Position numbers and translations under genes: made by a program. Under the pieces are notes generated by a model. It ran no database searches, was not told the DNA's origin, and saw only the letters and a program-made list of their open reading frames with translations. A stretch of DNA of 64,000 nt from Petrotoga sp. 9PW.55.5.1 (GTDB taxonomy: Bacteria; Thermotogota; Thermotogae; Petrotogales; Petrotogaceae). The DNA is taken from NCBI RefSeq assembly GCF_003265365.1, contig NZ_AUPM01000010.1, positions 1-64,000 of the forward strand, in the 5' to 3' direction. Shown one piece after another: positions 5,515 to 63,808 of this stretch (its first letter is position 1; each line of letters begins with the position of its first letter).

Positions 5515-6324
5515 ATAAAAGTCTATATTTCTTTCGACTTTGAAGGACTGGGGGGTATAACTCAATGGAGTGATGTCACCAAAAAAGATAAAGAATACAA
5601 ACAAGATTATGCCATCAGGCAATTAAGAGCACTTTTGGAACCATTAAAAAATCATGAAGTAACTTTATCTGATTCACATGCTGAAGGCGATAACATCCCT
5701 TGGACATTAACTGATGATTTTTCTAATATAAAATTGATTAGTGGTGGAATTAGAAAGTATTATATGATGAATGGGATAGATGAATCTTTTGATAGAGCAA
5801 TATTTTTTGGATATCATTCCGGTGTAGGGGAAAGGTATTCTACGATGGATCATACTTATTCAAGTTCTTCTATTCATAATATTTGGATCAATAATATTGA
5901 AATGAATGAAACTTTGATAAATGCCGCATATGCAGGAATATTTGATGTTCCTTTAACCTTAGTTGTAGGAGATGACAAGTTAAAAAAACAGATAAAGCCT
6001 TATTTTAAAAATCTTTATTATGTTGAAACTAAAAGATCTTTAGGTAAATATTCTGCAGAACATAAACCTATGAAACTTTTATTAGAAGAAATAAAAAACA
6101 CAACTGAAAATATGCTGAGTAAAGGGAAAGAGCAATTTGATGTTTTTAAATTTAATTCTCCTGTTGAGATGAAAATAGAGTTTTCCGATACTTCAAAAGC
6201 AGACATGGTCGAATCTATGCCGTTAGTTGAAAGACTAGACGGAAGAAGAGTAAGAATTACAAATACTGATTACAAAGTAATCTTTGAAGCTCTTTTAGCA
6301 ATGACTTATATTTGTGAATCCTAA
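5515..6324 (+). CDS. M55 family D-aminopeptidase (DppA-like), probable ATA start
   Basis: A zinc peptidase of the M55 family, which removes N-terminal D-amino acids from peptides. The N-terminus KVYISFDFEG is the family signature, with the Asp and Glu that supply the first metal ligands. Further conserved parts are LSDSHAEGDN, FGYHSG and the VVGDD segment. The length is 269 residues, as in DppA. GAGGTGA (5503-5509) is followed after 5 nt by ATA 5515, which sits exactly at family residue 1 and places the metal ligands at residues 8 and 10. The only other start is GTG 5506, which lies within the Shine-Dalgarno itself and would add three residues. No peptide transporter genes adjoin it, and msrA follows by 28 nt. 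Confidence 0.88.
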   Translation: MKVYISFDFEGLGGITQWSDVTKKDKEYKQDYAIRQLRALLEPLKNHEVTLSDSHAEGDNIPWTLTDDFSNIKLISGGIRKYYMMNGIDESFDRAIFFGYHSGVGERYSTMDHTYSSSSIHNIWINNIEMNETLINAAYAGIFDVPLTLVVGDDKLKKQIKPYFKNLYYVETKRSLGKYSAEHKPMKLLLEEIKNTTENMLSKGKEQFDVFKFNSPVEMKIEFSDTSKADMVESMPLVERLDGRRVRITNTDYKVIFEALLAMTYICES

Positions 6325-39495: not shown

Positions 39496-40215
39496 TTACA
39501 GTCTTTCAACCTCTTCAATTTTCAACTTTTTTATATCCCCAGCTTTGGGTACTAGATCTATACTCCATGGACCAAACTTTACTCTTTTTAGTTCCAAAAC
39601 TTTATAACCTAAAGCTTTTACCATCAATTTTATCTGTCTTTTTTTGCCTTCGTTTATACTTATTTGGAGTATAGATTTATCGCCTTGCTTTTTTATTATT
39701 CTTACTTTAGATTTCAACGTTTTATAACCTGTTTCTAAAGTTATTCCGTTTTCTAACTTACTGATTTCTTTTTGTGTAGGTACAGCATTTATTAGAACCT
39801 CATAGACTTTTGTTACCTTATTTTCAGGCCTTAATAGGTAGTTTGCAATCTCACCATCGTTAGTTAGAAGAATAACACCACTTGCATCATAATCAAGACG
39901 TCCAACGTAAAAGACTTTTTCTTCTATCTTTCCTTTTATTAAATCGTATATCGTTTTTCTTCCAAAATCATCTTTAAAAGTGCATAATACCCATTTTGGT
40001 TTGTTTAGTAGGTAGTATACTTTGTTTTCAGATATCTTTTTTAATAGTGAAAAACTGTATTTTTTATTTTCAAATTCTATGGAATCATCTGTTTTTAATT
40101 GATACCAAGGTTCTTTGACTATTTTTTCATTTACTTTTACACCCTTATTTAATATATACTCAGAGGCCCCTCTTCTACTTAGCGATATTAACTGAAGCGC
40201 TTTTTGTAACGTCAT
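39496..40215 (-). CDS. RsuA/RluB-family pseudouridine synthase
   Basis: Isomerizes uridine to pseudouridine in rRNA (16S or 23S). It has 239 residues. An N-terminal S4 RNA-binding domain (LQKALQLISLSRRGASEYIL ... VKVNEKIVKEPWYQL) precedes the catalytic domain with GRLDYDASGVILLTNDG, where Asp is the nucleophile, and RQIKLMVKALGYKVLELKRV near the end. RluB is favoured by its coupling to scpB, a common arrangement. The start ATG 40215 lies inside the scpB end, a 41-nt overlap, with GGAGG 14 nt upstream. Confidence 0.92.
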   Translation of the reverse strand: MTLQKALQLISLSRRGASEYILNKGVKVNEKIVKEPWYQLKTDDSIEFENKKYSFSLLKKISENKVYYLLNKPKWVLCTFKDDFGRKTIYDLIKGKIEEKVFYVGRLDYDASGVILLTNDGEIANYLLRPENKVTKVYEVLINAVPTQKEISKLENGITLETGYKTLKSKVRIIKKQGDKSILQISINEGKKRQIKLMVKALGYKVLELKRVKFGPWSIDLVPKAGDIKKLKIEEVERL

Positions 40216-40720
40216 TTTTCTTCATTGCCTCCAATTTTTTTAAAGTTTCATCGGGTAAAAGTTCATAAAACTTTTCACTTAGTTTGTAGTATGTATGATT
40301 GTCTTTTTTTATTTTTTTTACCAAGTCATAATCCAGTAATTTTTTTAGTTGATGATAACTATTTTTACCCCTCGTTTTTTCAATTTCAATGGCTCTACTA
40401 TCTCCATTCATAAACAAAATTGCAAGAACTTCAAATTGAGTTTCTGTAAGCTCTAATTTTCTTATATTTGGAAATATCATTGATTTTATTTCGGGTTTTA
40501 TCTCAAACCGGTACTTATTCCCAATTTTGACAAGTTCTACTCCATGTTGATCCCCTATATAATGATAAACAATTTCATTCATATAATCTCTTAGATCGTC
40601 GCTTTTAATATTTAACCTTTTGGATATTTCTTTAAAACTTATCCCATTTGGCTTAGAAAAAATAAGCGCTTCTATCATTCTTATTTCAACATCTATCTTA
40701 TCTTTTTTATCTATATTCAT
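40175..40720 (-). CDS. scpB: Segregation and condensation protein B
   Basis: A winged-helix kleisin-associated subunit of the SMC complex that compacts and segregates the chromosome. It has 181 residues: EIRMIEALIFSKPNGISFKE, ISKRLNIKSDDLRDYMNEIV, then RKLELTETQFEVLAILFMN and the second winged helix (YHQLKKLLDYDLVKKIK). ATG 40720 is used, with GGAAGTGAT 5 nt upstream; a longer in-frame TTG start (40798) lies deep in scpA. It overlaps scpA by 14 nt and the RluB-like gene by 41 nt. Confidence 0.88.
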   Translation of the reverse strand: MNIDKKDKIDVEIRMIEALIFSKPNGISFKEISKRLNIKSDDLRDYMNEIVYHYIGDQHGVELVKIGNKYRFEIKPEIKSMIFPNIRKLELTETQFEVLAILFMNGDSRAIEIEKTRGKNSYHQLKKLLDYDLVKKIKKDNHTYYKLSEKFYELLPDETLKKLEAMKKNDVTKSASVNIAK

Positions 40721-41396
40721 TGGGATCACTTCCAAGATGTTTATTAGATGATTTAATGAAGTATCCATTGCTATAATCAAAAAAACCTCGGTTAACAAGA
40801 ATTAAAGAAGCTAAAAACATTACCAAAAAGTTCAATTTGTTGTGTTTTGAGTATTCAAATAAATCAAATGAATTAAAATGCTCTTTTTTTTCTAAAAATT
40901 CTATAGCATCTTCTATACGATAAGCTTCTTTGATTATTTCTAATTTTTTTTGTTTTGATATATAATCATCAAAAAATTTTACTAATTGGTATTTAACGTC
41001 TTCTTTTTCCATTGATGCCTTATTTTTAACTTTAATAGGTTTCTTTTTTTCTTTTCCAAAATTGTTCTTTATTACTTCTTGTGCCTTTTTTATGATATCG
41101 TAATTTTCAATAGTTGTGTATATATATTCCCTGTGTTTTTTAAATTCTTTGTCTTTATGTGAGTTAGGTAAAATTTCTTTTGATTTTAAAAAAGTTAGAT
41201 ATGAAGCTAATTCTAAAAATTCTCCGATTGAATTTAAATCCTGAAAGTTATTGTTAACGTAATCAACAAAAATATCAGAAATATAACTTACTGATATCTT
41301 TCTAACTGGTATCTTCTTTTCTTTTACTAATTCAACAAGCTTATTAAAAGGTCCTGAAAACACATCCAGTTTTACATCTAACTCTTCAAATGAGAT
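40707..41396 (-). CDS. scpA: Segregation and condensation protein A, probable ATC start
   Basis: The kleisin subunit of SMC-ScpAB. It has 229 residues if started at ATC 41396. The N-terminus ELDVKLDVFSGPFNKLVELV is the ScpA signature (VxLxxFEGPLDLLLxLI), followed by ISVSYISDIFVDYV and ASYLTFLKSKEILP; the C-terminal winged helix holds the FLVMFLASLILVNR stretch. The frame opens after TAA at 41411-41409, and no ATG, GTG or TTG occurs before the signature. GGGAGTGA (41408-41401) lies 4 nt before ATC. The first ordinary start, GTG 41363, has no Shine-Dalgarno and would delete the first strand. It lies 16 nt after trpS. Confidence 0.87.
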   Translation of the reverse strand: MSFEELDVKLDVFSGPFNKLVELVKEKKIPVRKISVSYISDIFVDYVNNNFQDLNSIGEFLELASYLTFLKSKEILPNSHKDKEFKKHREYIYTTIENYDIIKKAQEVIKNNFGKEKKKPIKVKNKASMEKEDVKYQLVKFFDDYISKQKKLEIIKEAYRIEDAIEFLEKKEHFNSFDLFEYSKHNKLNFLVMFLASLILVNRGFFDYSNGYFIKSSNKHLGSDPNEYR

Positions 41397-41412
41397 CTTT
41401 TCACTCCCTTAA

Positions 41413-42390
41413 CTACCATTTTAAATGCATTGCTTCTCTTACTTCTTTCATAGTTTGTTCAGCCACTTTTCTTGCTTTCTCATTACCTTCTAAAGCTATA
41501 TTTTTAGCGTCTTGAAGGGTTGTATTTGCGAGTTTATCCCAAACAGGTTCTAACCTTTTTTTCATGTTTTTTATCAACAACTTTTTACAGTCTATACATC
41601 CTATACCTGCGGTTGTGCATCCTTTTGTTACCCAATCTTTTTCTTCTTGGGAAGGTGTAAAGGCTTTATGATAATCCCATACAGGGCATTTTTCAGGATT
41701 TCCGGAGTCTGTTCTTCTTTTTCTAGCAGGGTCAGTCATCATGGGTAATATTTTTTCTTTTAGCTCTTTTTCATTCGTTTCAATATTTATTATATTTCCA
41801 TAACTTTTGGACATCTTTCTTCCATCTGTTCCAGGAAGTTTGGGAACTTTTGATATTATAGGCTGAGATTCAGGAAATATCTCTTTGTAGGTCATGTTGA
41901 ATTTTCTTGCTATGTCTCTTGTGAATTCAAGATGATAAATTTGATCTTCTCCAACAGGGACCCTGTCACCTTTATATATTAATATATCAGCTGCTTGCAA
42001 AACTGGATAACCTAAAAAGCCTAAATTTGTAAGATCTTTGTTTGAAATATTATTAATCTGTTCTTTGTATGTTGGGATTCTTTCCAATCGGGAAACAGAA
42101 GATATCATGCCAAAAAGGAGATAAAGTTCAGCATGTTCTTTTATTGCCGATTGTATAAATAAAACACTTTTTTCAGGGTCTAGACCAACTGCTATATAAT
42201 GCCTTATAATATCAAGTGTTGATGTTTCTATAATCTCTGGTGTATCATAATGAGAAGTTAGTGCGTGCCAATCGGCTACAAAGAAGAAGTTTTCATTCGA
42301 TTTATTTTGTATTTCAACCCAATTTTCTAAAGTCACGAAATTTCCAATATGTAATTTTCCCGTTGCCCTCATTCCACTTACTACAGTCAT
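41413..42390 (-). CDS. trpS: Tryptophanyl-tRNA synthetase with probable Fe-S cluster motif
   Basis: Charges tRNA-Trp, whose gene is also in this window. A class I synthetase of 325 residues with KLHIGNFVT (14-17) as the HIGH box and GRKMSKSYGN (192-196) as KMSKS. Cys235, Cys258, Cys265 and Cys268 give the spacing Cx22Cx6Cx2C, the [4Fe-4S]-binding pattern reported for Thermotoga maritima TrpRS. The cluster is absent from most TrpRS enzymes. ATG 42390 has GGAGGT upstream. It is followed closely by scpA. Confidence 0.96.
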   Translation of the reverse strand: MTVVSGMRATGKLHIGNFVTLENWVEIQNKSNENFFFVADWHALTSHYDTPEIIETSTLDIIRHYIAVGLDPEKSVLFIQSAIKEHAELYLLFGMISSVSRLERIPTYKEQINNISNKDLTNLGFLGYPVLQAADILIYKGDRVPVGEDQIYHLEFTRDIARKFNMTYKEIFPESQPIISKVPKLPGTDGRKMSKSYGNIINIETNEKELKEKILPMMTDPARKRRTDSGNPEKCPVWDYHKAFTPSQEEKDWVTKGCTTAGIGCIDCKKLLIKNMKKRLEPVWDKLANTTLQDAKNIALEGNEKARKVAEQTMKEVREAMHLKW

Positions 42391-62229: not shown

Positions 62230-63354
62230 ATGGACGAAAAATTGGGAAAGATTTTTAAACTGATGGCTCCGGGAAAACCAATAAGGAAAGGGATAGATAG
62301 GATAATGGAGGCAAATTTAGGGTCTTTGTTATTCTTTTGTTCTCGTCCGGAAGAGTATCTTAAAGATGGACTTATACAACCCGGATTCAAACTTGAATCT
62401 GATTTTTTGCCTGAGAAAATATATGAATTATCAAAAATGGATGGTGCAATTGTTCTAAACGAGAGTGGAACAAAAATTTTAGCCGCGAATGCTCAATTAA
62501 ACCCTGATAAAAACATCTCAAGTTCCGAAACTGGGATGAGACATAAAACTGCGGAAAAGGTTTCTATACAAACAGGAGATTTAACAGTTGCAGTTTCTAA
62601 GAGGCGTAATATTGTTTCAGTTTATTATAATAAAATGAAATATGAATTATTACCTGAGAATGTTCTATTTGCTAGGCTTAATCATGAGATTACTATTGCT
62701 CAAAGATATCGTCAAAGCTTTATGAATCTTTTGGATAATCTTAATATAGAAGAAATGAAAGAGGAGGTTACCCTATTAGATATTGTAGAGATTATTTCTA
62801 AGGGGCAACTAACTTTAAAAATTACACAAAAAGCTGAGAAATATCTTTTAGAATTAGGTGAAATAGCTGGAAGCGCTAAGCTTGAATATGAAGAAATTCT
62901 ACGCACCATTCCTCGCCTTTTAGGGGCAGTGATTATGGATTATGCCTCAAAGGATCTTGAATGCCAAAAACCTGACGAAGCAATTGATATATTTGAAAAT
63001 TTAGATGTTGATGATTTGGTTGATCCTTTTAAAATAGCAAAAACATTGGGTTATGAAAATGTATCTTCTGAAGATGATTTAGAAGAAACATTCTTAACTT
63101 CGCGTGGTTACAGAATACTTTATTCAACTAAATTACCTGCAAGTGCAGTTAGGAATGTTGTAGAAAGCTTTAAGAATCTATCGGAGTTGATGAAAGCAAC
63201 TTTTGAGGAATTAACAAACGTTTCGGGAATCGGAAAGCGCCGAGCGGAAATTATTATAGGTGCATTAAATAAGAAAAAGAAAGAAAAAGAAGAAATTTCA
63301 TTAGATTTATCAAACAACATTGAAAGCAACAATATCCAAGAAGAGGTGAACTGA
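62230..63354 (+). CDS. disA: DNA-integrity scanning diadenylate cyclase DisA
   Basis: Makes cyclic di-AMP from two ATP and senses branched DNA. It has 374 residues: an N-terminal DAC domain with [10 protein letters not shown] (DGA at 71-73) and [16 protein letters not shown] (the usual RHR motif reads RHK here, 104-106), a helical spine, and a C-terminal helix-hairpin-helix ([18 protein letters not shown]). A charged tail of about 25 residues follows. GGGG lies upstream of the ATG, which begins 1 nt after radA. Genes clpC-radA-disA form a conserved trio. Confidence 0.95.
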
Positions 63355-63355
63355 T

Positions 63356-63808
63356 ATAAAAATTTTAGCTAAAAACAAAAAAGCTAAACATGATTATGAA
63401 ATTATTGAAACTATAGAGGCTGGAATTTCTTTAAAAGGAACTGAAGTAAAATCTGCAAAAGATAGTAAGATTAATTTCAAAGATAGTTTTTGTAAGATAG
63501 AAAAAGGTGAAATAATCTTGTACAATATTCATATAAGTCCTTATTCCGGAGCATCAATATTTAATCATGATCCTGAAAGGCCAAGAAGATTATTACTAAG
63601 AAAAAAAGAAATAAGAAGACTTCAATCAAAGGTTCAACAAGAGGGATTTACTATAATACCGTTGGAGTTCTATGTTAACGAAAAAGGGTTGGTTAAGGTA
63701 GAAATAGCTCTTGCAAAGGGTTTAAAAAAATATGATAAAAGAGAGAAGATTGCAGAAAAAGACTATGAAAGGAGAATTAGAAAACAACAAAAATATGAAA
63801 ACATATGA
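63356..63808 (+). CDS. smpB: SsrA-binding protein SmpB with an ATA start codon
   Basis: Binds tmRNA and rescues stalled ribosomes. It has 150 residues, typical length. The sequence [32 protein letters not shown], then [20 protein letters not shown], the [13 protein letters not shown] counterpart [20 protein letters not shown] and [16 protein letters not shown] are all SmpB. The frame is closed upstream by TGA at 63347-63349, and no ATG, GTG or TTG exists before the conserved core (the first ATG would be far inside it). AGAGGTGA ends 6 nt before ATA 63356, which aligns with family residue 1 or 2. It directly follows disA. Confidence 0.93.

Follow-up and report, generated by a model that had tools for sequence, protein, structure and literature searches.

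In the window, i.e. the whole stretch of 64,000 nucleotides that was analysed, scpA, which encodes the chromosome-organising ScpA protein of the SMC-Scp complex, is located on the minus strand between an upstream trpS gene (41413..42390, minus strand; TIGR00233 at 277.8 bits, cut-off 176.75) and a downstream scpB gene (40175..40720, minus strand; TIGR00281 at 71.3 bits, below the cut-off of 89.2). The TAG of trpS (41415-41413) ends 16 bases before an ATC codon (41396-41394), and one base separates it from a TAA (41411-41409) that closes the scpA frame upstream of the ATC. The frame then reads GGG AGT GAA AAG ATC TCA TTT GAA GAG TTA GAT GTA AAA CTG GAT GTG TTT TCA GGA. From stop to stop (41408-40707) it comprises 233 codons, and its first ATG, GTG or TTG (hereafter, ordinary start codons) is codon 16, a GTG at 41363-41361 on the minus strand, which encodes the V inside the signature VKLD-V-FSGPF; between the TAA and this GTG, the scpA frame contains no ordinary start codon. 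The original prediction had given the TAA, the codons GGG AGT GAA AAG ATC TCA and the absence of ordinary starts ahead of the ScpA signature, and on checking the sequence these letters and coordinates proved exact. Counted from the ATC, scpA (40707..41396, minus strand) has 229 codons plus a stop codon, and the ATG of scpB (40720) overlaps its 3' end by 14 bases. A short ORF with an ATG (ATG GTA GTT AAG ...) spans the trpS stop and overlaps the scpA start region, and RNA folding around the scpA start showed nothing unusual (z -0.39).

Upstream of the ATC lies an extended Shine-Dalgarno (SD) sequence, AAGGGAGTGA (41401..41410, minus strand), 9 of whose 10 positions are able to pair with the 16S rRNA tail found in this genome (GGATCACCTCCTTT), one of them as a G-U pair. 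SD scoring was calibrated on 199 ordinary genes sampled from the genome, in which the spacing between the GGAGG-equivalent and the start codon is most often 8 and usually 6-9 (mode 7-9). With a score of 9.6, the SD of the ATC falls within the 80th-90th percentile of these genes, and its spacing of 7 is within their mode. The predicted duplex is also much stronger upstream of the ATC (-10.5 kcal/mol) than at GTG 41363 (-3.1 kcal/mol), which has essentially no SD, as the original prediction had stated.

Whole-genome searches recovered scpA in 20 of 21 family members, and its codons were aligned gap-free from FSGPF between the present genome and its five sequenced congeners (G001-G005). The comparison of scpA 5' ends in sister genomes that the original prediction had proposed favours the ATC: this position is ATT in all five, so that an AUH codon (AUA, AUU or AUC) is present in 6/6 genomes of the genus, and the position of GTG 41363 is ATA in all five sisters. 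Counting from the ATT, the frames of these sisters lack ordinary start codons over a stretch of 41-66 codons, the first one being codon 42-67. Their leaders consist of AAGGAGG or GAGGAGG followed by ATCTC, ATCAA or AACGT and then ATA ATT AAC TTT, which places the ATT at spacing 8, the commonest in the present genome, with scores of 8.8-9.4. A strong SD is found within the trpS-scpA gap of all six congeneric genomes, and the AUH codon follows it at an ordinary spacing (7 or 8; scores 8.8-9.6).

A MutS2 tree groups genera g1, g3 and g7 into one fully supported clade (100/100). The aligned codon is ATA in G011 and GTA in the two genomes of genus g3 (G007 and G013). AUH use in scpA is not uniform in this wider clade: in G011 an ATG lies two codons before the aligned ATA, and the scpA frame of G007 includes a GTG, which lacks an SD. 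The G007-type GTG is lost in G013 through a length difference of one base, so that none of the first 40 codons is an ordinary scpA start. The aligned GTA of G007 and G013 (loci L009 and L010) is at spacing 9, with a score of 7.4, and GUA may serve as the start codon there. In most outgroup genera, scpA starts at nearly the same position with an ATG or a GTG. In a more distant genus, scpA of G058 (L024) has an apparent CTG start behind GAGGTGA, where its relatives have TTG. In comparisons among the sisters, 0 of 110 pair-codons differ synonymously within the eleven codons preceding FSGPF vs 106 of 600 in the body of the gene, as would be expected of nucleotide-level constraint on the start region, although this contrast is only supportive because the pairs are not independent.

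The ATC-started protein matches Pfam PF02616 at 26.9 bits (cut-off 24.6), and the gene order is scpA-scpB with scpB overlapping, both being features of ScpA family members. The NCBIfam ScpA profiles match below their equivalog cut-offs (57.1 bits vs a cut-off of 234), which are naming thresholds and do not define the domain family. Judged from these matches and from those to solved structures, which support the assignment, the product is a divergent member of the ScpA family. In alignments with three solved ScpA proteins, Met1 corresponds to approximately residues 0-6 of the ATC-started protein and never to the GTG.

The absence of ordinary starts, the position of the codon, the SD and the conservation of these features are direct observations. 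We consider it highly probable, from the sequence comparison, that translation of scpA begins at a non-canonical AUH codon, namely the near-cognate AUC 41396 in this genome and AUU in the five sequenced congeners, and the prediction of an ATC start is supported by the SD score, the spacing and the alignment with ATT and ATA in relatives. Initiation at a different non-canonical codon, i.e. AAG 41399 or CTG 41369 here or the ATA one codon upstream of ATT in the sisters, is improbable. Although that ATA is likewise invariant in the sisters, it lies at spacing 5, which was found in 9 of 174 ordinary strong-SD genes vs 44 at spacing 8; because it directly precedes the ATT, the exact start codon of the sisters is not absolutely fixed. 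CTG is generally a fairly good near-cognate codon, but CTG 41369 has no SD at a usable spacing and is not CTG in relatives, and AAG 41399 would have an SD spacing of only 4.

Translation from GTG 41363, the first ordinary in-frame start and the choice of a standard gene finder, is less probable still. It would yield a protein of 218 amino acids without the VKLD strand, i.e. the first beta-strand, and the missing residues, which are retained in relatives, match the N-terminal ends of solved ScpA proteins, in agreement with the truncation foreseen in the original prediction. The lack of an SD, the ATA at this position in all five sisters and the remoteness of their own first ordinary codons also argue against it. 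Expression of ScpA by frameshifting or readthrough from trpS, or from the short ORF overlapping the trpS stop, has hardly any probability: the scpA frames of G003 and G004 extend upstream into trpS without a stop, but here the TAA shuts it between trpS and the ATC, leaving no open path from the upstream frame into scpA, and a TrpS-ScpA frameshift product is therefore excluded; furthermore, there is no conserved slippery site, the overlapping ORF varies among species, and the gap carries a strong SD in all six congeneric genomes. A single draft genome could hold a sequencing error, but an error or decay of scpA can be dismissed as next to impossible, given that the missing ordinary start is common to six species, that the ScpA domain and operon are intact, and that the body of the gene is under purifying selection (29 synonymous vs 7 non-synonymous codon differences in 60 codons between this genome and G001).

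If scpA is translated from AUC/AUU, the near-perfect extended SD would position the 30S subunit at this codon, and the initiator tRNA would be accepted there despite the third-position mismatch. We infer that such initiation would be less efficient than from an AUG and could be repressed by IF3, so that ScpA would be kept at a low level compared with TrpS and ScpB within a putative trpS-scpA-scpB transcript. Its level would then track that of IF3 or the state of the ribosome. Both the IF3 control and the low expression are proposed by analogy only. In Escherichia coli, pcnB has an AUU start, and its low-abundance housekeeping product is limited by the start codon; it is a different gene and is not in a trpS-scpA-scpB arrangement.

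Starts other than AUG, GUG and UUG behind strong SDs are of an already known kind. The ATT of E. coli infC and the GTC of Streptomyces sigR are repressed by IF3, and Streptomyces infC is likewise a known AUH-start gene (PMC5472188). The infC genes of E. coli, Streptomyces and Staphylococcus aureus (AUU/AUC/AUA) resemble scpA in being essential genes with an AUH codon behind a strong SD, but infC is autoregulatory, whereas no feedback on initiation is known for scpA. Streptomyces sigR (GUC; PMC5472188), like scpA, precedes an adjacent gene whose product interacts with its own, and in both cases annotation would choose a wrong GTG; the start codons differ (GUC vs AUC/AUU), and repression by IF3, which was measured for sigR, is suggested for scpA by analogy. 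In S. aureus, infC (AUA), cvfC1 (AUU) and ccpN (AUA) have extended SDs; in poor medium, reporter constructs for cvfC1, ccpN and citZ yielded ~10% of the AUG level (PMC13009471). The conserved AUU/AUA starts and extended SDs of cvfC1 and ccpN are similar to those of scpA, but these are different genes whose starts were demonstrated by retapamulin profiling and reporters (PMC13009471), whereas the scpA start is proposed from sequence. Use of an AUH start by scpA was not found in the open-access literature searched.

Other AUH starts in the lineage were surveyed by setting 437 kb of sequence from this genome against 900 kb from G002, a partial sample that yielded 209 conserved non-shadow ORFs, some of which may not be real genes; an ORF was retained if an alternative codon out-scored every ordinary start in both species. 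On this measure scpA ranks first among the 209 ORFs, and credible AUH starts were also obtained for a dppA-like gene, infC, atpC, mutS2 and smpB, all of which have strong SDs. Most of the top rows were rejected as antisense shadows or as genes with a good ATG further in, and tgt and several other candidates as genes in which an ordinary ATG follows the SD. The AUH starts number ~5 of the 209 conserved ORFs sampled, this being the unbiased count because the atpC locus of the present genome was fetched on purpose. Such a proportion is far above the rates reported elsewhere; a reconstruction of start codons found one AUG-to-AUU switch among 61,358 ancestral AUG starts (PMC5622118).

The infC gene, which starts on ATA in the present genome, has this codon at spacing 9 behind GGAAGGTGA or GGATGGTGA in all nine g1/g3/g7 genomes; five of the nine additionally carry a TTG in frame, though it follows the SD by only 3 bases, and the present genome lacks one. 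In the window, smpB (63356..63805, plus strand; TIGR00086 at 191.1 bits, cut-off 119.1) starts on ATA (63356-63358) downstream of the SD GAAGAGGTGA (63340-63349, plus strand), and the start is ATA in 6/6 congeneric genomes and an exactly aligned ATG in other genera. The smpB gene of P. mobilis is entered as 'Frameshift' in Table 3 of PMC4131195, perhaps because its start went unrecognised. The mutS2 gene (L190, G000:C13:14886) has ATT behind GGGAGTGA or GGGGTGA in seven genera of the family, no ordinary codon occurs for at least 30 codons in genomes of g1, g2, g3, g4 and g7, and the start is ATG in g6. In three genomes of genus g14, which belongs to another family, mutS2 is apparently ATA-started (L214, L215 and L217). 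Within the genus, ATA is the start codon of infC and smpB, and ATT that of mutS2.

The atpC gene (L153-L158, L162, L169 and L170), encoding the ATP synthase epsilon subunit, has ATA in the five congeners, with no ordinary codon before codon 30, and ATT in the present genome, ATC in g3 and ATG in most outgroup genera. Its SD contains an in-frame GTG in the present genome and in g3. A similar configuration is seen in the dppA-like gene for an M55 D-aminopeptidase (5515..6321, plus strand): the in-frame GTG 5506 lies inside the gene's own SD, GAGGTGA, and across the genomes compared the dppA SD contains a GTG or ATG in frame. Residue 1, counted from ATA 5515, coincides with position 1 of NF058634, and the ATA/ATT aligns with the ATG of most g6 genomes; ATA 5515 is thus probably the start rather than GTG 5506. 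A GTG inside the SD, as in atpC and dppA, presents the same annotation trap as in sigR. Both atpC (ATT/ATA/ATC) and the dppA-like gene (ATA/ATT) are very probably AUH-started as well, and in smpB, mutS2, atpC and dppA the AUH codon occupies the position of the outgroup ATG. The lineage would contain at least four, and probably six, genes with AUA, AUU or AUC starts, and scpA probably belongs to a small set (infC, mutS2, smpB, scpA, and probably atpC and dppA) sharing this device.

The possible novelty lies in the scale of AUH use within one lineage, since the papers found describe such starts almost exclusively in infC and in isolated genes, and the ATG-to-ATA/ATT replacements seen here align exactly between genera. 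On balance, we lean towards the view that AUA, AUU and AUC are ordinary minor starts in this group, serving a few percent of genes and persisting at genus to family level, rather than a rare infC-type device, with very strong SDs and perhaps an altered IF3 permitting them and with annotation truncating or losing the genes concerned. Given AUH starts in scpA and several other genes, standard gene-finding rules would misplace or miss real starts in this group. If confirmed, the rule of AUG, GUG and UUG starts in bacteria would fail measurably in one lineage, gene finders would be mis-calling essential genes in it, and it would offer a natural system for studying how strong SDs and IF3 set start-codon choice.

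With regard to permissive factors, unusually strong SD pairing is a plausible one; SDs in Thermotoga are unusually strong (PMC3636130). The initiator tRNA was rejected as a cause, the G002 initiator retaining the three G-C pairs of the anticodon stem. IF3 has been reported to disfavour weak third-base pairs (PMC10158994), and an altered IF3, as suggested by residue comparisons, is a lead only, because one of the family's substitutions, M at 129, is likewise present in an IF3 of solved structure. Numbered on an E. coli IF3 sequence, the putative equivalents of R129 and R131 are M and L throughout the family (L044 and its relatives), and K at the putative R168 equivalent is confined to the g1/g3/g7 clade.
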